Positions 17,603 through 51,998 of a stretch of DNA of 64,000 nt are shown in pieces. Source of the stretch: Porphyra umbilicalis (lineage: Eukaryota > Rhodophyta > Bangiophyceae > Bangiales > Bangiaceae). Made by a program: the position numbers and the translations under genes. Location of the stretch: contig KV919051.1 of assembly GCA_002049455.2 (NCBI GenBank), forward strand, positions 36,453-100,452, given 5' to 3'. Each line of letters begins with the position of its first letter. Positions within the stretch are counted from its first letter, which is position 1. The notes beneath the pieces were generated by a model. That model made no database searches, was not told where the DNA came from, and saw only the letters and a list, made by a program, of their open reading frames with translations.

Positions 17603-20600
17603 ATGAAGCGGCCCGGCGCCAAGACGGCGACCTACTGGCGCACCAAGGAGGAGGTGGAAGCAGAGTATGGGGAGTGGTACAAGGAGCCCCGCTACGACCC
17701 CGAGTCGGACGCGTACGACGCGGCCGCCTACGAGGCGCTCGTCAAGGAGATTGTCGACAAGGCCGGCCTGACGCAACCCGAGGTTGGCGTGTCGTGGCGG
17801 GACCTCACCGCCCGCGTCAACGTCGCGTCGGGCCCCGTGCGGGACACTGTCGGCACGCAGGCGCTCGGGGTGTGGAAGGGCCTCTACCAAACCGCCGTCC
17901 GGTCCGTGCGGTGGGGCAAGGCGACGCGCCTCCCCGAGGCGGAGCGCCACCACACCATCCTGTCGTCCGTGTCGGGCTACGCCCGCCCCGGGGAAATGGT
18001 GTTGGTGTTGGCGCCGCCGGGCGGCGGCGCGTCGACGCTCCTCAACCTCCTCGCGCTGCGGCGGGCGGGGCTCTCCTCCACGGCGGGGCAGGTGCTGTAC
18101 AATGGGGAGGAGATCCCGTGCGCGGACCGGGTGGCCGTCAACCACGTGCTCCGCTTTGTCGGCCAAAGGGACGAACACTTTGCGCAGCTGTCCGTGCGGC
18201 ACACGCTCGCCTACGCGGCCGAGTTTAAGCTCCCCGACTTTTACCCCTACGCGCCGGTGCTGCGCCGCCACCGGGTGCTCCTCGTGGCCCGCACCCTCGG
18301 CATTGTCAACACCCTGGATACGCCCGTCGGGGATGCCATCCTCCGCGGCGTGAGCGGCGGGGAGAAGAAGCGCGTGACCGTTGGGGAGATGGCGGTGGCG
18401 GGCATTGCGGGGTCGGTTGTGGCCATGGACAACTGGTCCAAGGGCCTCGACTCGGCGACGACGCTGGACATTGTGCGGGCCATCCGGGGGTTCACCCGGC
18501 GGAGCCAGTCGGTGGTCATCAGCAGCATGCAGCAGCCACCCGAGGAGGTTTTCAATGAGTTTGACAAGGTACGGCGCGCGTCCTTTTGGCAGTCGGGTGG
18601 GGTGCAGGGGGTTTCACTGTGGACCGTTGGGGGTGCCCTCAGACGTGCGCGTTTGTGTGGATGCCCGGTTGCCGTGCCCATTGCTCCCAGACGACGTGCT
18701 AACCACCATTCTGTCCTTGCCCTCGTTTGCATTGTACTTGCGTTTGTGGGTTGCTGTGTTGTGCTGGCTCCGCCGCATCGCCTCTGTGTTGGCCTGTTTG
18801 ACCCCACAGCTGTGCGTACTAGACGCGGGCCGCTGCCTCTACTTTGGGCCGACCGACAGGGCGCTTGACTACTTTACGGGCCTCGGCTTTACCAAGCCAA
18901 CCACCCGCTCCGTCCCCGAACTCATCACGACCGTCAGCGACCCGGCCTTCCAGGGCGACCTCGTGACCCCCGGCTGTGAGGACACCGCCCCACGCACCGT
19001 CGGCGACTTTGTCGATGCCTTTGCAAAGTCACCCTTTGCCCGAGATGTGACGGCGGCGCTCGACGAGGGCGTCAAGGGCACGCCCCGCCCCGACCTCACC
19101 CCCGACCTGCAACGCAAGGTGCGCCGGCAGTCGCTGCAGAGCCCCTTTCGCCAATTCATCATCCTCCTCCGCCGGTCGGTGCAGCTCATTGTGTCCCAGC
19201 CCGTCACCTTTATCGTGACGGTCCTCGCCAATGTGGTGTTTGGGCTCGTCCTCGGCAGCATCTTCTTCAACGTCGACATGACCGAGTCGGGCGCCTTTAG
19301 CCGCGGTGGGCTGCTCTTCCTCGGCATGCTCTTCCTCGCGTTTGGGGAATTGGGCGGGGTCCCGACCAAGTTTGCGGAACGGACAGTGTTTGCAAAGCAG
19401 AGCAGCGGGGCGGGCTTTTACAGTGTCATGCCGTTTGTTGTGTCTGCCTCGTTGGTGGACGCCCTCACCGTCTTTGTCAAGACCGTGTGCTACTCAACGT
19501 CCATCTACTTTCTGGCGGGGCTCAACCTCGGCACCTTTGGCGAGCGGTTTGCCTACTACATTGCCGTCCTCTTCTTTCTGTCCCTCTTTGTCTCCACCTA
19601 TGCGCGGCTGCTGTCGTCCATGGGGAACAAGGATTTGGCCAACGCGCTGGGCGGGGTCGGGCTGATCGTAATGGTCATGTTTTCGGGCTTCCTCGTCCCG
19701 TACGACAGCATCCCCAACTTCCTCATCTGGCTGTACTGGGCCTCGCCCGTGCAGTGGGCGTATCACGCACTGCTCATCAATGAGTACACGGGCCTTGACT
19801 TTACTTGCTCGCCAGAGGGGTTGGTGCCTTTCAACACGGCCATCCCCGACGCCCTCAAGGTGTGCCCCCCGTCGTTGTCGTCGGGCACCGCGTACGTGGC
19901 CGCCAACTTTCAAGCCCGCCTCGGCGGCATGTGGCGGCTGTGGGACATCCTCGTGCTCTTTGGCTTTTACGTGCTTTGCCTCGGCCTGACCATATTCCAG
20001 ATGTCTCGCCTCAAGCCGCAGGGCTACGCCTACCGCGCGCCTGCCGACGCCATCGACCCGGACGAGCGGTCGGCACCGCGCATGTCCCTCGACGCGCACT
20101 TTAGCCGCAACTCGACGACGAGCCTCACCGGCGCGACGGCGGTGACCATTGGGGCGCTGCGGGACAAGTATGGGAGCGGGGCGGGCGGGGCGAGCAAGTC
20201 GATCAAGGCCAGCGCGTCGGGCGGCGACGTGGCGATGGCGGCGACCACGTCTTCGAGCTCCTCCCACTCGTCGACGGGGGACCCTGTGGGAGCGGGCAAG
20301 CAGTCGACGACGGGCGGTCACGGGGCCGTGCTGACATGGCACAACCTCAACTACACGGTCGATGCCAACGGGGAGCCTAAGCAGCTGTTGAACAACGTGA
20401 TGGGCTTTGCCGAGCATGGCCGCATGCTGGCGCTCATGGGGAGCTCGGGTGCCGGCAAGACGACGCTGCTTGACGTACTCGCCCAGCGCAAGACGGGGGG
20501 TGATGTGGCTGGGGACGTGCTCGTCAACGGGGTCGAGCTGGCGCCGCTGTCCTTTGCCAAGATCTCGGGGTACGTCGAGCAGGCGGACCTCCACGTGCAG

Positions 20601-22727
20601 GAGGCGACGGTGCGCGAGGCGCTCCAGTTTTCGGCCGCTCTCCGCGGCGGCCGCGACGTCTCCGAGGCCGACCAGGCCGCCCGCGTGGAGGACGCGATGG
20701 ACAAGCTGCAGCTGCGGTCGGTGCAAGACCAGCTCATCCTGTCGCTCGCGCCCTCCCACCTAAAGAAGCTGACGATTGGCTGCGAGCTGGTCGGCATTGG
20801 CAGCGACGCCATCCTCTTCCTCGACGAGCCAACGTCGGGGCTGGACGCCCGCGACGCCCTGTCGGTCATTGCGGGCCTGCGGCTCATTGCCGCCGACCGC
20901 GTGGCGGTTGTGTGCACCATCCACCAGCCGTCGCAGGAGCTGTTTGCGTCGTTTGATCGGCTGCTGCTGCTCTCCCGTGGCGGTAACATGGTCTACATGG
21001 GGGACCTCAACGCGGCAGAGGGGGAGCCGCTCGAGGGTGTTGCGGGCGGCAAGCTGATGGCCTACTTTCAAGACCACGGGGCAGCGCCGCTGCCGCAAGG
21101 CCGCAATCCGGCTGAGCACATGGTGCGTTTGGGGCGCCTGGCGGGCGGGGGGCGAGAGGGAGTGGGAGTGTGCGCGCCGCCGTCGTGGACTGGTCGCGCG
21201 TGGGCGGGGATGTGCGGCGGCTATGGCACATGTATTGCGTCGTGACCGCGTGAGCACTCCCATTGACTCGTCTTGCTAACCGCCCGCACGCTCCATATCT
21301 CCCGTTTGCTCCCTATGCTTGCATTGTTTCCTTTTCTGGGCGTATCCTCTTCCTCTCTCGCAGTTGACGGTTATTGGCGCGGGGACGAGCGGTAGCTCGG
21401 AAATCGACTGGAACCGGGTGTGGCTTGACTCGGACGAGCGCAAGGCCATTGAGGGGCGCATCGACGGCTCGGACGGCAAGCCACCGCTGGTGTCGGAGCA
21501 GCTGCACGGCCGCGTCCCCGAGGGCGGCAAGCGCGCCGCCAGCCGCCGCCAGCAGCTGCGCTACTGCATTGTGCGCATGTACCGCCGCTTTTGGCGGCTG
21601 CCCGCCTACAACTTTACGCGCCTCATGACGATGCTCTTTTTGGCGTGCCTCCTCGGGTTGGCGCTGTTGCAGATTGCGAGCTTTTCCAACGACGACAACA
21701 CGCAGGAGGCGGCGGGCCTCATCCCTGGCGCGGCCTTCCTCTCCATTCTTCCGGGCATCCTCTCCACCAACAACGCCGTGTCGCCGGCGATTTCCACTCG
21801 CGCGGCCATGTATCGCGAGCTGGCCGCGGGGGAGTACGGTGTGTGGGCGTTTTACGTCGCACAAGGGGCGGCCGAGGTGCCCTACGCGGTGCTGACGACC
21901 GTTGCGTTTTTGGTTCCGTACAACGCGCTCGTCGGCCTGCCCTGGTCCGCCTTCCCCTTTTACCTGCTCGCGGCCGTGCTCTTCTACACCTTTGCCATCT
22001 TCATCGGGCAGGCGATTGCGGCCGTGTCGCCGACCGAGGAGATTGCGCTGACTCTTGCGCCGCTCGTCAACACAATCCTGAATGTCCTCTCTGGCTTCCT
22101 CATCAAGCGCGCGGATATCCCATCCTACTGGTACGTGTCGTGTTGCTCACGTGGTTGCCTGGGCTCGCTCTTGGGGGCGTGCTTCGATTATCGCTGTGTG
22201 CTCGTCCAGTCTGTATTGCCTGGGCAGCTCTCTGACTCGGCGCTCTCGCTTGTGTCTCCCTGCCATGCATTGTCTGTCTGCTTATACCCTCGCATCTACC
22301 GCCCCTTGCGCCACTGTCGCCCACTTTTCTTCTCCAACTCACACGCGCCTCCCCCGTTCCCCACTGCAGGATATGGCTGTACTGGGCCAACCCGTATGCG
22401 TATTTCAATGCTGCGGTACTCCGCAACCTCCTCTCCGACATGACATTCACGTGCCCGCCCGAGGAGCGCCTGATCATCCCGCGCCCAGCCGAGTTTTCGA
22501 CCTGCACCGCCATCCCCGACGGCGCCAGCTACGTCGACGTGACGCGGCCTTCGGGGGCGCCCGCCTGTGCGGCGTGCCCCATCAACTCGGGGAGCCAAGT
22601 GCTGGAGCGCTTCACCGTGATGGACGTGGACAAGTGGATTGGGATTGTCGCGCTGGTCGGCTTCATCGTGCTCGCGCGGGTGGCGACGGCCCTCGCCCTC
22701 AAGTTCACCCGCCACATGACGCGGTGA
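17603..22727 (+). CDS. Full-size ABCG/PDR-type ABC transporter
   Basis: Four exons (17603-18568, 18810-21122, 21364-22130, 22370-22727) join in frame to 1467 residues, normal for the pleiotropic-drug-resistance subfamily (NBD-TMD-NBD-TMD). These proteins export lipids, sterols or xenobiotics across the plasma membrane. NBD1 has a degenerate Walker A APPGGGAST (residues 137-145, Ala143 where Lys is expected), signature VSGGEKKR (250-257) and a Walker B with D276-N277 instead of D-E. The first TMD follows (for example TFIVTVLANVVFGLVLGSIF, FYSVMPFVVSASLVDAL) and closes with PVQWAYHALLINEY. NBD2 has a canonical Walker A GSSGAGKTT (866-874), Walker B LFLDEPTSGLD (D994-E995) and H-loop CTIHQPS, but its signature is degenerate (APSHLKKLTIG). 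The second TMD ends with a Cys-rich extracellular segment and a final helix before FTRHMTR. The start is the first ATG of a well-formed N-terminus. One composite ATP site is therefore canonical and the other degenerate, as in fungal PDR pumps. Confidence 0.95.
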
Positions 22728-40482: not shown

Positions 40483-43400
40483 CTATGATACGTTGCATTC
40501 TTGCCCGACGTCGTCGACGTGCATCTTGGCCAGGTTGTCGTTGTAAGAAACGGCCGAAGCTAAGCGCTCCGCGATGGCTGCGGCCGCCCTGGCCATCTCG
40601 GGCGTCAGGCTGATGCCTGAACCCGACGCCACCGCCGCGTCGAGTGCCCGCCGGAGCACCATGATTTCTCGCTGACCGCTGCTCAGCTGCAGCATGGCAA
40701 ACATCCGGGCGTGACCCTTGGCAATGATCTTGCGGAAGAAGGCCGTCTCCTCATCCGACGTTGCCGCTGCAATCTGCTGCTTGCACCACGTCGACACCAA
40801 GAAGCGGTAGCTGCCAATAGCATCCTGGCGCAGGCGCTCTCCTTCGCCAGACACCCGATTGCAGCGGGTGACGGCCCGAAAGCGGGCCTCCTTGGCGTGA
40901 CACACGTCCAGAAAGCGCAAGGCGGCGGCGCGTGAGAGCTTTGCGGCATGTGCCCTTGCGTCACGAATGGCGGCGCCGCTGGTGCCATTCGCGGCTGCAG
41001 CGGTGGCCGCCGCCCGCGCCCGCTCCAGCTGTTCCACCAGCTCTTGGTAGGAATGAAAGGCGGTCGACTCCCGAGCCGCCAGGCCGGGCAGCGCCGCCGC
41101 GCCGGGGCCCGCCCGCCCGGTTGGCTCCGCCAGATCCCCAGATGCTTGCGCGCCAAGGCTGCCGTTGTTGCTGTGGGCGGCGCCCGCCGGACCACCCCCC
41201 GCACCACTAGCGCCTCCGCCGCTGCCGCCGCCGCCGCCATTGCCACCACTCATGCCGCCACCGGCGGGCGTGGAGAGAGGGCGTGGTGGCCGCAGGGGTG
41301 GCGGGGGGGCCTGTCCCTTGGAGCGGGGAGGAGGCGGCGCTTGCGCGGCGGGCGGGGTGATGGTTCTCGGCACTGGCGGGCTGATGGTCCGCCGCTCGGG
41401 GGGCGGCACGCCCGCCTTGGCAGCGCCCGCCCGCCCAGCGGTCGGCCGCAATGGCGACGGTGTCACTGGTGGGCCTCCCCCCGTTGGCGTCCCCGCCGCG
41501 GCGGCGGCGCCGCCCACACCGCTCGCCCCGCCAGCGTCTGACGCCACCGACCGACGGTCGCGGTCGCGGAAGCGGTCGCCGTCCCGGTCCCGCTTGCGGT
41601 CCCGGCCGCTCGGCCGCTCCCCCGCCTCCGCGTCCCGCTCCCGGTCGCCGTCGCGCGGCCGACCTGGCGCGCCGTCCCGCTCACGCACGCGGCCACGGCT
41701 GCTGCCGCCATCGGGTACTTCGGGCTCGATGCTCTCCCGACCGCGGTCGCGGTCGCGCGCAGACGATGGGGGCAAGGCAGAGCCTTCGCGGCTCGCCCGC
41801 GCCTCCCGCCCGCGGCGTGGACGGTCGCGGTCCCTTTCCCGCTCGCGGTCCCTGTCCCGCTCGCGCGGTTCCCGGTCGCGGTCTCGGTCCCGATCACGGT
41901 CCCGGTCCCGTTCCCGTTCCCGCCGGTCGCGCTCACGGTCGCGGTCGCGCTCGCGCTCACGGTCGCGGCCGCGGCCGCTGCCACGCTCCCGCTCCCGGTC
42001 CCGGTCCCCATCCCGGCCGCGGTCGCGCTCGGAGCGGTCGCGGTCGCCGCGGTCGCCGCGGTCGCGGTCGCGGTCGCGGCGGGAGCCCGGCGACGATGGC
42101 GGCGGGCGCTCGCTGCCCGCCCGTCCGTCTACGCTGCCGGTACCGTCACGGTCCTTGACCGCGCTGCCGGCGCGGGCCACAACCGCGAGAACCTCGACCG
42201 ACGCGGACCGCCGGGGGGTGGCGGCGCCCCTGCTGCTGCTGCCGCGCGCCTCCCGCGTATCCCGCTCACGATCAGCCGAGTCGCGACTGCGGGGGACGCG
42301 CGCTTCGTGCTCCTTACTGTCCCTCTCGTCGCCGCCGCCGTCACGATCCAGCCGAGCGCGCGGGGCATCGCGCAAGCGCTCAATGGAGCGGTGTCCTGGG
42401 GAGGGGGACCTACGAGACCGCCGCCGTCCGAGGATGGATGGTGGTTCGGCACGGCCACCGTCGCCACGGCTCCCTGGCCCATCCCATAAAGGTGGTGGTG
42501 GCTCCCGGCTGTCGCGACCACCAGCTTCTGCCGCATGCGCCGGCGTCACCGCCGCCATAGGGCTCCCGCCTCTGTCAATGGAAGAGGCCTTGGTGGCGTG
42601 CGAGGGCTTGTCTGCCGCATCCCTTCGGCTAAGATGCCGCAAGCCCGTCCGCCCGCTACCGGGCAGCGTCGCTGCAGCATCCGCACGTGTTTTGGCCGCC
42701 GACCCGCTTGTTGGGGCGTCCCCGTCGCGGTCCGCAAACGCCTTGAAGCCCGCAGGCGATGTTTTGGACTTTTTGGCCACGTGCTCCGTCGCTGCCACCG
42801 CGGCCGCGGCGGTGATGGAAGCCGCGGCGAGTGCCGGCGGTGGTACGGTGGTTGGCCTCGACCACGGCGGATCGACGCCCCCACCCCGACCGACCCGGCC
42901 AAGCCCGACGGGTGGGGGTGACCGGGAGCCCCGCTCGCGCGCACCACTGGCAGTCCGCCCAATGGAACGGAGAGCTTCTTTGCCCCGCGGAGACGCATCC
43001 GGTCCGACAGGGCGCAGGCGCTCCAAGCCACGGGGCACCTTGGCATCGCTCGCGACCGCCGCCAGAGCGTCCACGTCCATCGCCGTCCCAGCGGCGGCCG
43101 AAGAACCGCCATAGGCGGGCTCTGCCGATGGGTCCCGCGGCGGCTTGCCCCTGAGCTTGGCGGGCGAGATGCCCCGCGGCAGGGGCGCCGGGGAAAAGCC
43201 CCGCGGCGGCGCGGGCGACACCCCTCGTGGCGGCGCGGGCGCCACGCCCTGCCGCCTCGTCGGGGAGAGCACCCGTGGCTCAAAGGGTCTCAGCAAGGGC
43301 GCGTCGCCCACCGCCTTGGCCGGGGACAGGCCCGCCATGTCGCCTGGGTCGGGGCGGCGTGGATCAGGCACGCCCCCTCTCGGTTTGCCACCCACCGGCA

Positions 43401-44213
43401 GCAGCACTGGTAGCGGCCGCGGCTCCCCAAGCATCCGCACAGGCGGCGAGGCGGCCACGGAGCTGTGGGGTGACAAGGACAGGCGGCGGATCTTGGACGG
43501 CCGGGGCGGGAGCGCCGGCTCCAGCGCCCCGACCGTACCAACCACGTCCACACACAGGGCGCTCAAGTCGCGGAGGAAGTCGGGCCCGCCACCACCGCCA
43601 GCGGGGGCGCCGCCGTCCGCCAGGCCGTCCCCGCCGCCGCGCTCTGTCCGCGTACCGTCGGGGCTACGGGAACGGGACAGAACGGGAGAGTGCGAGACGG
43701 CGCTGCCAGCGGCCGCTAGGGGGGGCGGCGGGCCGCCAAACGATGGGGGGAGGGGCGGCTTGCGGCGGGTGCTGCGAAGGTTGGGCGACAGCGGAGACGT
43801 CCCTAGGATGGTGGACAGGGACGGCTGCTCGGGGTGGGGGGGGGGGAGGGTCGTCCGTACGGATGGGGAGCGAGGGAATCAGCAAGCGCCATCCCAAACC
43901 ACACACAAGCAGCAGGGACAAGGAAGAGTGCGTTGTGAGTCGGCTGTATCGAGGCAACACCAACGTAGACGCACGGACGCCAAGGCGCATGAAACAGTCG
44001 ACGTTCACGTCCTGAACCCTAAAACAGCGGCACCCCCCACCCAACAGGCGGCCCCAACTCAACAGCACAAACACAAGCGCTTTGCTAGAGCCCCGACCAC
44101 AGCCGACAGCACGGCAGCGGCCAGGACGGCGCACGTACCATAAAGTTTTGGAGCGCAGCCGGGAGCCCATCAACGTCCATCCCCTCCCCCGTCGATGGGG
44201 CCGGTGGAGGCAT
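40483..44213 (-). CDS. Arg-Asp/Arg-Glu dipeptide-rich nuclear-type protein
   Basis: Exon 1 (44213-44139) encodes MPPPAPSTGEGMDVDGLPAA plus LQNFM; a gtacgt donor and a C-rich ccgagcag acceptor lead to exon 2 (43824-40483), giving about 1138 residues (or 1127 if the second ATG at 44180 is used). The N-terminal half has SP/RSP motifs and repeated proline-glycine phrases (APPRGVSPAPPRGFSPAP), a lysine-rich potential nuclear signal (EHVAKKSKTSPAG) and many RS/SP sites. At about 42320-41560 the protein is almost only alternating Arg with Asp or Glu (runs like RDRDRDRDRDRE). The last about 170 residues are ordered and helical (FHSYQELVEQLERARAAATA, RFLDVCHAKEARFRAVTRCN, SYRFLVSTWCKQQI) and should be the functional domain. 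RD/RE-rich tracts are typical of splicing and mRNA-processing proteins (for example U1-70K, RED, NELF-E). I do not recognise the C-terminal domain, so no specific function is claimed. Confidence 0.75.
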
Positions 44214-45184
44214 CCCCGCCGGCGGCTGGCGGGCGAGCCCATTTCGCCGCCGCGAGGGGGGGTGTGGGGGCATCGCCGGCCGCCCCGTCCGCGGCGGGCG
44301 ACCGCCGACGCGGCACTCACAGCCAACCGCGCCACGAGGCGGGCGCGCCCCTGCAGGGCGCCAGCATCGGCAACGCGCAACCACAGACGTGCAGCGGGGC
44401 CCGCGGGGGGGAGGTGCGGACACCCCACAGACCGACACAAAAATCACAGCGGGGGGCGGGCCGCGTCCCGCAATGCCCCACCGCGCGTCTCCAGGGGGCC
44501 AAGCGACGAGAAGGGCAGGGCGGGGAAAGGAGGGGAAGCGTACGGTCGCTCCCAACACGTAGGCGGCGCGCAAACGTGACGGGGGCCACGCCGTCGCGCG
44601 GAGGTTGGTGGGCGGGCGGGGGGGGGGGGAGCGGCGGGCGAACAACGGTGACGTGGGCCGGACGCAGCACCCGCGAGCGCCTCTGCCTCTGCGTGGGGGG
44701 GGTCCACGCCTAGTTAAGGTGACTCTTACGGGTCTGAGCATTACACACGACAGAGCTGCAACGTGCTAAAATACCACTGGTCGAGGGCGATTTGGGACGC
44801 GTCCCAATTTTATAGGCCTTCAATGCCCCTGTGAGAGGGGTGGCTGACCGGAGAGGATGAGCAATGGATTGAGCCGTGATCCGCCGGATCACGTGTTGCC
44901 CGCGTTTTTTTGCCCGCTCGTTTCCACGCCGGTCGCCTGCAGGCGTTCCAGAGGCCCCCGAGCCCATACGATCGCCGACTGGTTGTCTTCCTGCTGTGGA
45001 GGGGTGCAATATGGCGGACGACGATGGAGACCGGATGTAAGTGCGACCGTTTTGTGAGGAGCAGCCCGCAGCGGAGCGGGGGGAGGGGGGGGGAGCGGCT
45101 GGGTCCTGCAGACTGCAACAGAGACACTCACATTTTCCGCGTACTATCTACTTACCCCCCCCCCCTTTTTTCTGGTTATTGTGA
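44214..45184. other. Divergent intergenic region
   Basis: Lies between the RD-rich gene (minus) and the transposase-like gene (plus). The left part is very GC-rich. From about 44710 to 45180 the composition is more even, with aaaataccactggtcgag near 44768 and a C tract followed by ttttttctgg just before the transposase ATG. The composition change near 44710 may mark the left edge of the mobile element, but I found no terminal inverted repeat. Confidence 0.4.
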
Positions 45185-48010
45185 ATGGGAAACAGGGCAA
45201 CCACAGTAGACGTCGTGCAGTCCTTTGGAGGCACGATATGGGCGTACCTTTGCGTCGACTGCGCGCGCCTTCTCCTGAAACCTACATCAGGAATGGCTGA
45301 TTGGCGCGACTGGGCCAAGACCTGCCCTAGTGGCTCCTCTCCAGACCTCGTTGCGCGCCTTCCAGTCGTCGCGTGCAAGCGTGGGGCGGCGGCATTGGGT
45401 TTGCACAGCGCAGGGACCCCCCTCGGTCTTTGCGACAGGTGCTGCGCTCGGCGCAAGAGGGCGGCACGTCGCGATCTGGCTCCCTCTCTGTCGGCCACTA
45501 CCCTGCCCCCCCGCTCCCCTACCGCGGGCGTACCCACCCCTGGCGTTCCGCTCGCCCCGCGCCTGCTGCCCCACCTCGGGCAAGCACCAGCTCCCCCCTC
45601 CCCCTGTATGCCTCAGGACGGCTGGCTCGGCTCTGCACTGTCGGTCGGCACCCAGTCGGCTAGCATGGGCGTTTCGACGGGCTTTCCAGACGGCGCCTCC
45701 TCGGGGACGGTCGACCGCTTGGGCGGGGAGCGGCAGGCAGCCGCAAGAGCGGAGTCGCTGGGGCAGCGCCGCCGCGCGGTCTCCCCCACACACGTGGGGG
45801 AAGGTGCACAGCCGCAGGAGCTCCCAGTCGACGCGCGTCGACGGCTGTTGTTTGCCTCTGGTGGCGAGCCCAGTAGTGAGCCCACCCAACCACCACCGTC
45901 GTCGGCGACCAAGCTGCCGGCACTTCCCAGTTGTCGGGAATTCCTTGATGGTCTCAGGGCCGGGAATTACGACCGGGAGCAGGACAAGTCGACACTTGAG
46001 GACATTGCAAGTGCAATTCTGTGGCGTGGTGACCGCCCCGAGATCCGCCTCCGACACAAGAATGGAAGCGTGCGCGTCTACCTACGACAGCTGTCGAGGA
46101 GGAAGGCCCAGGTCAAAACGAGCCAGACAAACAAGCGCCGCGAGGCGGCGCGTCGGCTGCAAGGGGGGGGGGCGCAGGTTGGGGTGGCGAAGACCAAGCG
46201 CTGCAGGACGCGGCCCTCGCGCGGTGCCGTCCAACTCTCTGTCACCGAGCAGGTGGGCCTTGTGGCGGCTCTGTCCATGAGCAACGTTGGGTTCAACCGC
46301 TGGAGATTGGCACTCGGAGGGGCCGCCAGCGGCCTCTGCAGCCTGCCTATACTGCGTGCTAAGCGGCGCGAGCTGTCCGCGCTGCCTGGCAAGAAGGTGG
46401 TCGTGACAGGCTCGGGGGCTCATCTTGTCTCACTTACCGCGGCCATTCAGGAGCGCGTGTCGGCCCTGTGCGACGGCGGACTGTTCGTGGAGAGGCCGAC
46501 CAATGCCTTGGCGGCGCTCAACGACGCGGCGACCGCCGCACCCGGTGTTGCCGCAGCAGCGGACGCCTTTCCTGGCTCGCCCGCCACGTCGGGACCGGAC
46601 GTGCAGATCGTTGTCGGTCTGGACAAGGGCGGAGATCCTGGGACGGTGAAAATTGTGGCTTCAATTATTAACCAGGCGCACCCGAAGAGCCCCTCGAACA
46701 CCATCCTGGTCGGAGTTTGCCCGTGTGACAACGACAAGTACGAAGCCCTGGCCGCCATGATGGAGACGCACCTGCCGCAAATTGACGCCCTCCTGCGTGA
46801 CGGCGTCATGGTGCATGGTGCGCGACGTCCGGTGCGGCTGATGTTCGGGTGCGACTACGACGCGCAGTGCTGCTTCCTTGGCCACAAGGGTGCGACCGCC
46901 ACGCAACCCTGTCTGATGTGTAAGCGCACCCGGTCGCCGAGTGTCAAGCAGGCGCTGCTGGACGCCACACACGGGACGCTTCAAGATGTAAGTGGCAGCG
47001 GGAACCTGCGAGAGGGCGCGCACTTTGCGGACCGCATGGTGATGGACAACGCGACGCGGACTATTGCCATGCCTGGCACGCCGGATCATCATTGCTCGGT
47101 GGCGCGGAGTCCCCTGCTTGGGATTGACCCCCGCCAAATTGTACCAATTCCTCTGCACACAACGCAAGGAATTAACCACCGATTCCTTCGACTTGCTGTG
47201 GAGACGGTGATGGTGTACCGGAGCGCGACTGACGGCGCTGCCGCCGGACGGCAAGCGGGCACCGACTTTGCGCTGGAGCTGGTTGGGCTGCTTCATGAGA
47301 GAGTACGCGTCCGTCCTACCGACTTCCATGGCGGGCTGTTTATTGGACGAGATTGCCACACCATCGGCGACAACAGCGCCCTGGTGTGTGCCGCTCTCGT
47401 GGGCAAGGTCTCGCCAGAGCACCTGGCTGCCTACGAGAAGGCCTGGTCGCTATGGAACAGGGTCCGCAAGACCCTGAACCGCGCCGCCATCATCCCTGCC
47501 GAGGAGGTCGTGGCTTTTCGTGCGGATACGTCCGCCATGGTCACCCTGCTGAAGGGGAGCTTTGGCTGGCTTTCCATTTCCCCAAAGCTCCACATTTTGA
47601 TGTTCCACGCTCCAGACTTTCTGGAGCTGTGGGGCAGCATTGGTCTTTATGGGGAGCAGGGGCTGGAGGCATGGCATGGTAGGTACGGGCAGAATGCTGT
47701 CAAGTATCCGGGCGCAACGGAGTTGGAGCGGGCAGCAGGATTTATGAGGGCAATGGCTCTGGCGCGCGAGGCGGGTGCGGATGTCCTCGCACGCTACGTG
47801 GCGACGCGGAGGTCGGCCGCGGCTGGGGCCCGCAAAGCCACGAAGGCAACCGACAAACGGCGTCGAGAGAACAAGCCGGCGTTGCCGGAGTGCGCCGCCG
47901 AGAGCGCGAAGGCGGCCAAGAAGCGGCTGAAGTGGGCGGTGGGCATTACTGAGGAGGCTGCCAAGACCGTAGGAGCCTATCTCAAGCGTGTTAGTCAGCA
48001 GAGTGTATGA
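45185..48010 (+). CDS. DDE-type transposase-like protein
   Basis: A single uninterrupted 941-residue frame. Residues 20-105 hold a cysteine-rich segment (AYLCVDCARLL, then VVACKRGAAA and LCDRCCARRKRAARR) that could bind zinc and DNA. A Pro/Ser-rich linker follows, then FLDGLRAGNYDREQDKSTLE and a basic stretch. The C-terminal half has the order of a DDE/RNase-H transposase: IVVGLDKGGDPGTVKIV (D480), LMFGCDYDAQCCFLGHKGA (D557/D559) with a CLMC zinc-knuckle-like insert, PLHTTQGINHRFLRL, then KLHILMFHAPDFLELWG and GEQGLEAWHGRYGQN (E824/E828). I infer D480, D557 and E824 or E828 as the catalytic triad. Proteins with GHKG..C..C and EQG.EA.H signatures are known to me as uncharacterised, repeated eukaryotic ORFs, but I cannot name a superfamily. 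The start follows a pyrimidine-rich leader. The frame is intact, so the element may be recently active. Confidence 0.65.
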   Translation: MGNRATTVDVVQSFGGTIWAYLCVDCARLLLKPTSGMADWRDWAKTCPSGSSPDLVARLPVVACKRGAAALGLHSAGTPLGLCDRCCARRKRAARRDLAPSLSATTLPPRSPTAGVPTPGVPLAPRLLPHLGQAPAPPSPCMPQDGWLGSALSVGTQSASMGVSTGFPDGASSGTVDRLGGERQAAARAESLGQRRRAVSPTHVGEGAQPQELPVDARRRLLFASGGEPSSEPTQPPPSSATKLPALPSCREFLDGLRAGNYDREQDKSTLEDIASAILWRGDRPEIRLRHKNGSVRVYLRQLSRRKAQVKTSQTNKRREAARRLQGGGAQVGVAKTKRCRTRPSRGAVQLSVTEQVGLVAALSMSNVGFNRWRLALGGAASGLCSLPILRAKRRELSALPGKKVVVTGSGAHLVSLTAAIQERVSALCDGGLFVERPTNALAALNDAATAAPGVAAAADAFPGSPATSGPDVQIVVGLDKGGDPGTVKIVASIINQAHPKSPSNTILVGVCPCDNDKYEALAAMMETHLPQIDALLRDGVMVHGARRPVRLMFGCDYDAQCCFLGHKGATATQPCLMCKRTRSPSVKQALLDATHGTLQDVSGSGNLREGAHFADRMVMDNATRTIAMPGTPDHHCSVARSPLLGIDPRQIVPIPLHTTQGINHRFLRLAVETVMVYRSATDGAAAGRQAGTDFALELVGLLHERVRVRPTDFHGGLFIGRDCHTIGDNSALVCAALVGKVSPEHLAAYEKAWSLWNRVRKTLNRAAIIPAEEVVAFRADTSAMVTLLKGSFGWLSISPKLHILMFHAPDFLELWGSIGLYGEQGLEAWHGRYGQNAVKYPGATELERAAGFMRAMALAREAGADVLARYVATRRSAAAGARKATKATDKRRRENKPALPECAAESAKAAKKRLKWAVGITEEAAKTVGAYLKRVSQQSV

Positions 48011-48240
48011 TTAAAGGATGAGACGTCTTCCTGAACAGAAACGAGACCAAAGGGGCACCCCGATGATCACGTGTGTTCAGCATCCTACTGGCCGGCCAGT
48101 ATGAACCCTGCGAGACGCCCCTGGAGCTCCATGCCAGGAGCTACTCAAGCGGGCATATGGACAAACTCTGTGTGAGGCATGGCCCGTCGTTTGATCGTGC
48201 GGCCAACGAACATCGCGCCCTGAGCGGGGCGGGGGTCGCT

Positions 48241-49382
48241 ATCACCGACTGTCAGTGTTTTGGGACCTCCCCCTATGCCACTCCGGGTAAAACATGTGCG
48301 CTGAGCACGAATATGGCCTCAGAAAGTGTATTCCATAGGTTCCCCCTCTTTGCCGACCCCACATGGCCCGATAACCGGGCGCCCGGGGCACCATGCCTAC
48401 CTTTCGTGTGCGACATAATGCACAAGCGGTTCTGATATCCTCAGCATAAAGTCGTCGAGACGCACGCATCGAGCTAAAGAAACCCACCAACGGACCAACA
48501 CAGCAGGAGTTATGACCTGCCTTGCACCAGTGCGGCCTACCAAAATCGCACCAGGGGGGGGGGGGGGGTCGTTATCACCGACCGTCGGTGTTTTGGGACC
48601 TCCCCCTATGCCACTCCGGGTAAAGCATGTGCGCTGAGCACGAATATGGCCTCAGAAAGTGTATTCCATAGGTTCCCCCTCTTTGCCGACCCCATATGGC
48701 CCAATAAACGGGCGCCCGGGGCACCATGCCTACCTTTCGTGTGCGACATAATGCACAGGCGGTTCTGATAACCTCAGCATAGAGGCGTCGAGACGCACGC
48801 ATCGAGCTACAGAAACCCACCAACGGACCAACACAGCAGGAGTTATGACCTGCCTTGCACCAGTGCGGCCTACCAAAATCGCACCAGGGGGGGGGGGGGG
48901 GTCGTTATCACCGACCGTCGGTGTTTTGGGACCTCCCCCTATGCCACTCCGGGTAAAGCATGTGCGCTGAGCACGAATATGGCCTCAGAAAGTGTATTCC
49001 ATAGGTTCCCCCTCTTTGCCGACCCCATATGGCCCAATAAACGGGCGCCCGGGGCACCATGCCTACCTTTCGTGTGCGACATAATGCACAAGCGGTTCTG
49101 ATATCCTCAGCATAAAGTCGTCGAGACGCACGCATCGAGCTAAAGAAACCCACCAACGGACCAACACAGCAGGAGTTATGACCTGCCTTGCACCAGTGCG
49201 GCCTACCAAAATCGCACCAGGGGGGGGGGGGGGGTCGTTATCACCGACCGTCGGTGTTTTGGGACCTCCCCCTATGCCACTCCGGGTAAAGCATGTGCGC
49301 TGAGCACGAATATGGCCTCAGAAAGTGTATTCCATAGGTTCCCCCTCTTTGCCGACCCCATATGGCCCGAGAAACGGGCGCC
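48241..49382. repeat. 333-bp tandem repeat array (3 full units plus part)
   Basis: Units start at 48241, 48574, 48907 and 49240, exactly 333 bp apart; the last is truncated at about 49382. Units 1-3 each end in a G-rich run (a 15-G run between units 1 and 2, similar runs after 2 and 3). Each unit carries the same 82-codon open minus-strand frame, which may be fortuitous. Unit 1 differs from unit 2 in both halves, while unit 3 has a unit-2-like first half and a unit-1-like second half (ctgatatcctcagcataaag versus ctgataacctcagcatagag), as expected from unequal exchange or gene conversion. The array starts 230 bp after the transposase-like gene and may form the 3' part of that element. Confidence 0.93.
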
Positions 49383-50756
49383 AGGGGCTCTCCGACTATC
49401 TTTTTTGTGTGCCACTGTTCTTCGACGTGGTGCGCATGCATAGCATCGTGAGTTGAAGCCCAGCGTATGAAGCTCAAGAGGAGCTCACATGGTCCAGTAG
49501 GGGCGGAGCTATGCCGTTTTTGCCGCCGGAGCGCCAGGCACTCGTTGGTGCGAGCTCGATTCCGTTGTGCCAACCTCCAACGCGACCTATTCAAGATTCG
49601 CGCAACGACCGAAAGCGATTCGCTCGCCATCGTCCCGTGCTGGTCCTTGAGCGCTGGTGGGATTGGCCACGTCGCGATCTGGCGAAATAAGTACGCTTCC
49701 TTTCAACAGACGATAGAAAATAACTGACATGAAGGCAGTCGCCCAATGAGAAGTTGCATTTGGATGTAGGAGCCAACCATGTGCAGCAAAGCCTTCAAAA
49801 GCCCGTAAGAGCGGATACACTGGGCCTTAACTAGGCGTGGGTCGCACGGCGCTGGTTCAGCGCGCTGAGAACCCTACGCGGAGCGGGCCGATTGGGTGGG
49901 GGGGGGCGCGCGGCTGCCCAGCACAGAGTGCGGTGCCAATTTGAGCAACAATGGCGTCTGCGTGGGCACGCACGAGGCCATCGTCTGCATCGTTGACTTG
50001 AATGAAGTTTTACGATCTTTCCCATTTTTTAAATATTTTAGTTCAAATGCTGCAGATGCCTTGCGGGATATGGTTGGCTCGCAGAACCATTGGTTTCAAA
50101 TCCGGAGACACTTTTGCGGCCCACACGTACAGATGGGCGCGGAGGCGGGCAGCAGCGCACTTGGCGTCGGCGCGCGAGTGTGCTGAAAGCTTGTTTGTAT
50201 CCACTCATCGCTAGTTTTGATGGAGGATAGAGCGTAGTGTTGCAGCCTTTACAGGCAAGACCAAAGAAACAGCCTTGCAAAGCTGTACGATGGTCGTACA
50301 CTGCACGCTGACCATCGAGTTTCCTACGCTTCAGGTCGGGTACTTCAGTGAGCGCCCGCAACAAGACCGCGGGTAATTCAACCTGGTCTTTCAGTTTTCC
50401 ACGTCTACCTCCCCCTAGGACGCTGGGACGCAGCACATTTCAGGCACGATCAGGTGGCCAGCGATCTGCTTGCGAGAAATCACTGTATTGAAGGACATGT
50501 GCGCGCTTTTTTTACATGTTGTGGTCCATGCAAGACGAAAAGCGACACAGTCGTAGAGATGCAACACACAGAACAGAACGTTGCAGTACGAGGGAAGAAA
50601 AAACTAGCGACACGCGGCGCCCAGAGTCGGATGATACTCGTCGTCGGTAGCTGCTCTGTTGGCTGTCATGGGCACACGCAGAGCAGAGGTGTGGGTACAA
50701 TTCGACAAAGACGGCTGGGCACCAGCGCCAAAGGGCAGGCGGCACGACAGTCGCGC
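49383..50756. other. Intergenic with a less GC-rich stretch, no gene seen
   Basis: 49400-50450 is less GC-rich than average, with ttaaatattttagttcaaatg at about 50029. A short minus-strand run near 50760-50500 is arginine/cysteine-rich without a family. Nothing supported apart from the 3' end of the Lhc gene, which terminates at 50757. Confidence 0.4.
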
Positions 50757-51998
50757 TCAACGGCCAATCGGGGCAGAGAGCCACATACCCAGCTGGGAAA
50801 AGGTCGGCTGCTTGTGTACAATCTGCTGGGAGACGAGGCCCACTGCGAGGGGGTGAACAATAATGGCGGCGGCGGGCGGACGACCACGGAAGCGAGAAGA
50901 AAGGGAAGACGTGCCTCCCAGCCTCGGTGAGTCATGACAATTCAAGCTCGCGTGTCAATCCGGACCTCAAGCCCGATGGGGACAAGAGGCACCCCCCCCA
51001 CCACTCTGTCGACACACACATTGCCGGTCGCTCGCGCAGCCTTGCCCTTCTCCCGAACGTACGGATCCCGAGCATAGCCAGGCGGCCGTGCTTGACCTCG
51101 GCCAGGCGCATGCGAGGCGTGTCGAGGCCGATCGGATCGAAGTCCAGGTCCGCCGCGTCACGCTCGCCGTCAAACATCTTATCCAGCGTCAGAATTTCGA
51201 AGAGGGAGGTGAAGGCGACGATCTGCACCCACCCGCCCCAGTGCACCTGCATCATAGCCTGGAGTTGGTTGGGGTTCTGGAACTGAGGGTCGGGGAGGTG
51301 GACAAACTCAGCAACCATCCAGCCGACGCAGGCCAGCATCGCCACTCGACCGTCTGCCCAAGTCAAACCATGAAGAGGCAGAGCCATTGAGAAAAGGTCA
51401 GAGCCGTGTCAACAGGTGAGAATGCTGCTAAAAGCACTTGCTGGTCGCGTGCTCCCTCGCAGACCCAGTAGCTGCCGAGGTGAGCTATGCTCGAGCGGCT
51501 TTGACATCGATCACAGGCAGAGGTCAACGTACTCTTGACCTCGCCCTTGGCAGCCCAGTCCTGGTCCAGCCACGAGCTCAGCTTCAGCGGATCGAACCCG
51601 AAGTCTACCCACCCCAGCCCAGACGACATGACAGTGAAGAGCAAAAGCATGGAAAGCAAGTTGGAGGGAATGTCAGATAGAAGTTCCAACACCGCGCCGC
51701 ACGCACCATACATCAGATCATGTGAGGTAGCGAAGAGCTGCTCCGCTCCACCATCTGGTTTCCAACGTCGGCAGCCAACCCCTACCATCCTTGCCACCCC
51801 CCTCACTCCTCGGCGCTGCAGCCGGAACGTACACCCGTACTGGTCCTCCTTCAGCGTGGACGGCGCTTCCATAAACGGAAGCGCCTTGGACGCCTTCATC
51901 GTCACGGTGGCGGCCACCGGCGACGGCGCGCCCGTCACTTGGGCGCCCGCAAAGGCGGGGCGGCCCATCAGCGGGGCCGCGCTCACAAATGCCACCAT
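50757..51998 (-). CDS. Light-harvesting chlorophyll-binding protein (Lhcr-type)
   Basis: Four exons (51998-51833, 51604-51533, 51353-51063, 50842-50757) give 204 residues. All three donors read gtacgt, the phases fit at each junction, and each junction restores a conserved motif. The N-terminus MVAFVSAAPLMGRPAFAG followed by ATVTMKASKALPF looks like a red-algal plastid transit peptide with a mature start near the second Met. FGFDPLKLSSWL precedes helix 1, EVKNGRVAMLACVGWMVAEF, which spans the exon 2-3 junction. Helix 2 is HWGGWVQIVAFTSLFEIL. FDPIGLD and the helix 3 motif EVKHGRLAMLGILGLVSQQI span the exon 3-4 junction, and the protein ends MWLSAPIGR. Glu-Arg pairs between helices 1 and 3 hold the fold and bind chlorophyll; such Lhcr proteins serve photosystem I antennae in red algae. 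The usual Asn/His ligand residues look swapped between helices 1 and 3 compared with what I recall for Lhcr. Confidence 0.93.

Follow-up and report, generated by a model that had tools for sequence, protein, structure and literature searches.

Organization of the locus and its surroundings

The locus described here lies in a 64,000-nucleotide stretch of Porphyra umbilicalis DNA, which is referred to as the window. The locus comprises an intact frame of 941 codons on the plus strand, with an ATG at 45185 and a stop codon ending at 48010, which is enclosed by inverted repeats and a duplicated tetranucleotide (Table 1). The left terminal inverted repeat (TIR) is followed by a leader of 465 bp and the transposase gene. 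A tandem array with a 333-bp unit begins 127 bp beyond the gene, and another 388 bp separate the array from the second TIR.

Table 1. Features of the element, with positions counted from the first letter of the window
Feature	Position	Strand	Basis
Left target-site duplication GGTC, 4 bp	44701..44704		flank comparison
Left TIR CACGCCTAGTTAAGG, 15 bp, perfect	44705..44719	+	inverted-repeat scan
Second end motif CTCTTACGGG, bases 19-28 from left end	44723..44732	+	end comparison
Transposase gene, 941 aa	45185..48010	+	intact frame, DUF1280 at residues 469-536, motifs
Transposase layout	Cys-rich N-terminus C23-C87, low-complexity linker, DDE core D480/D557/E824 or E828		
Transposase Cys/His motifs	C(2)C 576/579, LH 657-658, H(4)H 803/808		read from translation
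333-bp tandem array, downstream of transposase gene	48138..49436		Tandem Repeats Finder and repeat search
Second end motif CTCTTACGGG, bases 29-38 from right end	49802..49811	-	end comparison
Right TIR CACGCCTAGTTAAGG	49825..49839	-	inverted-repeat scan
Right target-site duplication GGTC	49840..49843		flank comparison
Whole element, 5,135 bp	44705..49839	+	terminal inverted repeats and GGTC duplication

Tandem Repeats Finder reported 3.6 units of the array (48197-49388) and a repeat search four, of which the last has 76% similarity to the first. Of the 333 positions, 328 are identical between units 2 and 3 and 285 between units 1 and 2, and a G-rich run is found inside the units. An 82-codon antisense frame recurring along the array was rejected as a gene, as it recurs merely because the DNA repeats. 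Four frames of the element other than the transposase were compared with Pfam and three of them gave no match; the frame at 49467-49724 was rejected as coding with an AAA_lid_3 score of 13 bits (E 0.078) against a cut-off of 27.2. Among the frames scanned there is no second gene. The GC content of the leader (58.8%) and of the trailing part (57.1%) was considered as a sign of foreign origin and dropped, because the region at 50-52 kb beyond the element is equally low (58.3%).

A fragment of a chlorophyll-binding protein is located at 50935-51387 on the minus strand. It matched 265 PDB sequences, of which the best 60 are named light-harvesting or chlorophyll-binding, with LHCI as the label of the top match and ACPI, ACPII and FCP among the others. 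Further frames of the window match protein kinases, DnaJ, WD40, ATAD3 and ABC transporters. The transposon sits between ordinary genes of a eukaryotic host that looks like an alga, probably one of the red lineage. The ABC transporter at 18378-22443 extends over two plus frames, which contain the membrane and the ATP-binding parts. Two very long overlapping frames, 40483-43878 on the minus strand (without a Pfam match) and 41057-43114 on the plus strand, cover a repetitive stretch rich in Arg, Ser and Asp, and a 101-bp direct repeat (1-101 and 998-1098, 92% identical) is found with a distance of about 1 kb. An earlier note on this DNA, made from the sequence, had regarded the other elements as broken. 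Our check of this statement was confined to the PIF1-like helicase fragments at 11.4-13.1 kb. They are spread over two separate plus frames between 11396 and 13108 (PF05970 PIF1, E 1.3e-13; PF02689, E 5.2e-6 and below its own cut-off), and perhaps derive from a decayed Helitron or are exons of a PIF1 gene.

Coding status and residues of the transposase

The window has a GC content of 67.6% and contains 52 stop-to-stop frames of at least 300 amino acids, several of which overlap on opposite strands. Since long chance frames are so common, the length of the transposase frame is by itself weak proof of coding, and we take the frame as coding because of its Pfam match described below. A stop codon directly precedes the ATG, and the stop-to-stop version of the frame likewise starts at 45185. 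The earlier reading of an intact 941-residue protein is borne out by the translation, which runs without internal stop, and D480 (GLDKGG), D557 (GCDYDAQC) and E824/E828 (EQGLEAWH) are all at the positions given in that reading. The Cys-rich N-terminus is also present (C23, C26, C47, C64, C83, C86 and C87). For the insert, which had been written as GHKG..C..C, the cysteine pair is real and the spelling was loose, as the actual pair is C576-x2-C579 (CLMC). In addition, the protein contains L657-H658 (LH) and H803-x4-H808 (H(4)H), which had both been overlooked; the order is C(2)C, LH and H(4)H, all between D557 and E824/E828.

When the whole protein was shuffled 5000 times, the ordered pattern D-D-C2C-LH-H4H-E turned up in 26 cases, and 5000 shuffles of residues 441-870 gave it 10 times. 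It is therefore just moderately rare and by itself not strong evidence, so that the case for the identity of the protein rests on the Pfam match and on the ends of the element. The distance from H808 to E828 is 20 residues, which presumably equals the spacing between the second zinc histidine and the catalytic glutamate of RAG1, and for this reason we favour E828 over E824 as the catalytic residue. Single-sequence AlphaFold models without relatives reached a pLDDT of 37.8 for the whole protein and 35.1 for residues 465-865, too poor for a fold search.

Element ends and target-site duplication

To define the ends, the regions 43.3-45.2 kb and 48.0-50.6 kb were compared for inverted repeats beginning with CAC and flanked by 2-5 equal bases. 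The top of eight candidates, 44705/49839, matches at 15 of 20 bases, with the first 15 identical throughout and GGTC duplicated on both sides. Five equally large control regions yielded 4 to 27 candidates each, with best scores of 12-14 out of 20 and duplications of 2-4 bp. The simple score of 15 out of 20 is close to these values, and it is the contiguity of the match together with the duplication that distinguishes the pair. An inverted match of 15 bp occurred in 5 of 500 Markov-simulated pairs, and none of the 500 combined it with a 4-bp duplication. Within the whole window, 1101 inverted 15-mer pairs are 0.3-15 kb apart and nine of them have a 4-bp duplication; the remaining eight are GC-rich words in which one or more of the four bases are missing. 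If only pairs with all four bases are counted, a filter chosen post hoc when the list had already been seen, one of 15 has a duplication.

The inverted match continues one base outward (44704/49840), where the flanking C and G chance to pair, and the end of the element was set at CAC because of the GGTC duplication. With these ends the flanks of two, three and five bases differ (three bases, GTC and GGT; five bases, GGGTC and GGTCG), which is why the duplication is given as 4 bp. The element is complete-looking, and its ends and the GGTC duplication, both missing from the earlier note, are now located.

Allowing up to three mismatches, the TIR sequence occurs just twice in the window, and a tblastn search of the window with the transposase returned the gene itself and otherwise nothing better than E 0.43. 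The window therefore holds one insertion as a single copy, without an empty site for comparison. Judged from the sequence, the perfect TIRs and the intact duplication suit an insertion of no great age, and the transposon may be active.

Family assignment and alternative explanations

In Pfam the transposase matched DUF1280 (PF06918) with an E-value of 6.6e-7 and 29.6 bits against a curated cut-off of 25. The match covers residues 469-536 and surrounds the first aspartate (D480) only, and the sole other entry listed (E 0.26) stayed below its own cut-off. Majorek et al. (2014) described DUF1280 as putative Chapaev transposases, which they placed in the RNase H-like superfamily and grouped with RAG1 in one clade (PMC3985635), and DUF1280 counts are given in a table for Hydra (PMC7642931). 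As marks of Chapaev, Zhang et al. (2014) named C(2)C, LH and H(4)H, ends of the type CAC...GTG and a target duplication of 3-4 bp (PMC4079192). All three published motifs are present in the transposase. Nothing was listed by Pfam over the N-terminal region with the seven cysteines (residues 23-87); at the N-terminus of Chapaev a Chapa zinc-finger domain has been described (PMC4411706). Family and motifs support the predicted DDE-type transposase with a Cys/His insert, and we are confident that the element with these ends is a structurally complete cut-and-paste transposon of the CMC (CACTA-Mirage-Chapaev) clade. Within the clade the Chapaev type is the most likely branch. The element is a further member of an already named group and no new superfamily.

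Nested in this explanation is the possibility, which we consider the less probable one but worth weighing, that the element is a member of classical CACTA/EnSpm, Plavaka, ESTA or Lanisha, which are other branches of the CMC clade, or of an algal branch that has no name. The whole clade has C(2)C and H(3-4)H in common, and its duplications range from 2 to 5 bp (PMC12730594), Repbase moved Chapaev into EnSpm (PMC4455052), and the DUF1280 match is short. On the other hand, it was DUF1280 that Pfam listed, and neither Transposase_21 nor DUF1258 was among the matches up to E 10, a limit at which the HMMER filters nevertheless remove most matches above about 0.1. Furthermore, the 4-bp duplication differs from the 3 bp of fungal EnSpm families, the 2-3 bp of Plavaka and the TA of ESTA (PMC12730594).

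A domesticated host gene, derived from a transposon that has lost its mobility, would also have an intact frame, a single copy in the window and host genes on both sides. We regard this as unlikely, as the perfect TIRs and the intact GGTC duplication immediately flank the element. The third-position GC of the gene (72.2%) is also unlike that of three other genes of the window (84.5, 87.5 and 82.3%), which likewise suits an insertion that is not old. Least probable of all, and hardly to be expected, is a truly undescribed superfamily, as proposed in the earlier note under the terms "no named superfamily" and "undescribed transposon group": the Pfam match is not full-length and a PDB sequence search up to E 10 listed six sequences (best 0.052) with no transposase and no RAG or Transib chain among them, but DUF1280, the full set of Chapaev motifs, the CAC...GTG ends and the 4-bp duplication speak against it.

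Asymmetric end motif and proposed mechanism

The 10-mer CTCTTACGGG is located just inside the TIR at both ends of the putative Chapaev-type element, with a difference in position of 10 bp. Counted from the CAC heptamer (CACGCCT), the spacers are 11 bp on the left and 21 bp on the right. Among 19,954 pairs of 30-base stretches from the window, 51 shared a word of at least 10 bases, and shuffling the two end stretches produced such a word in 7 of 20,000 cases. The spacers of RAG signals are 12/23, as are those of a few Transibs; the spacers of amphioxus ProtoRAG are 27/31, and other invertebrate RAG-like ends depend on about 15-17 bp (PMC8355894, PMC7204232). By analogy, the ends could carry bipartite asymmetric signals whose spacers differ by about one helical turn, as the 12/23 spacers do in RAG signals and in some Transibs. 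We hold this interpretation to be doubtful, because the element is a single copy and an indel of 10 bp at one of the ends would account for the spacing equally well. Among the papers listed for at least three of the terms Chapaev, Transib, heptamer and nonamer, none contained the word Chapaev. If the arrangement is functional, an end rule with one turn of asymmetry would be an older and wider trait of the CMC/Transib clade that reaches beyond animals, and if it recurs in further copies, it would bear on the origin of the 12/23 rule of V(D)J recombination.

For transposition we propose that the transposase binds the element ends, perhaps also CTCTTACGGG, and pairs both ends. Cleavage at CAC would be carried out by a zinc-stabilised RNase H-type DDE site in which D480 and D557 act together with a glutamate, probably E828 and otherwise E824. 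The element would then be joined to a new site whose strands are cut 4 bp apart, a stagger which repair would convert into the duplication, and the 333-bp array may be passenger or regulatory DNA of the element.

Searches for relatives

Protein scans gave two pattern matches in viral contigs and 13 in prokaryotic genome contigs, with no relative in either, and tblastn found no relative in a phage collection. Two degenerate motif patterns matched nothing in the viral contigs and a third gave 63 loci, none of them a significant relative (best E 0.58); the pattern of the element ends was absent from the prokaryotic genome and viral contigs. As these collections are not meant for eukaryotes, the absence of relatives there means little. 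A literature search of titles and abstract openings for Chapaev together with alga or Rhodophyta revealed no algal Chapaev, and no title or abstract opening among the best 20 of 429 matches on transposons and red algae dealt with one. PMC8533490 names Chapaev only among its references. A 2015 paper puts the number of Repbase families of Chondrus crispus, a red alga, at 1,181 (PMC4455052). An orphan frame has become a defined element with ends, a target duplication and a transposase that can be named, so that copies are searchable and activity is testable.

Comparison with known systems

With the CACTA/EnSpm elements of fungi and plants the element has C(2)C, H(3-4)H and CAC...GTG ends in common (PMC12730594). 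The fungal families produce a 3-bp duplication (PMC12730594) compared with 4 bp here, and no Transposase_21 match was listed.

Transib and RAG-like elements share C(2)C, H(3-4)H and the DDE motifs (PMC12730594) as well as ends starting with CAC, and the core end repeat of RAG-like elements of about 15-17 bp (PMC8355894) is comparable to the 15 bp found here. However, their duplication is 5 bp long (PMC7204232) instead of 4 bp, no second gene was found in the present element, and the six PDB sequences included no RAG or Transib chain.

In the case of Chapaev, the hosts in the two studies are animals (PMC3985635, PMC4079192), whereas the present host looks like an alga, and a Chapaev-type element in an alga would extend the host range beyond these animals. 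The silkworm element encodes 556 amino acids in two exons (PMC4079192), compared with 941 in a single frame here, and the internal 333-bp tandem array is a further difference of the present element. The Chapaev3 subgroup has a 3-bp TWA duplication between A and T (PMC4079192), whereas GGTC is duplicated here. Shared with Chapaev are DUF1280, the motifs C(2)C, LH and H(4)H, the CAC...GTG ends, the 4-bp duplication and perhaps also the Cys-rich N-terminus.
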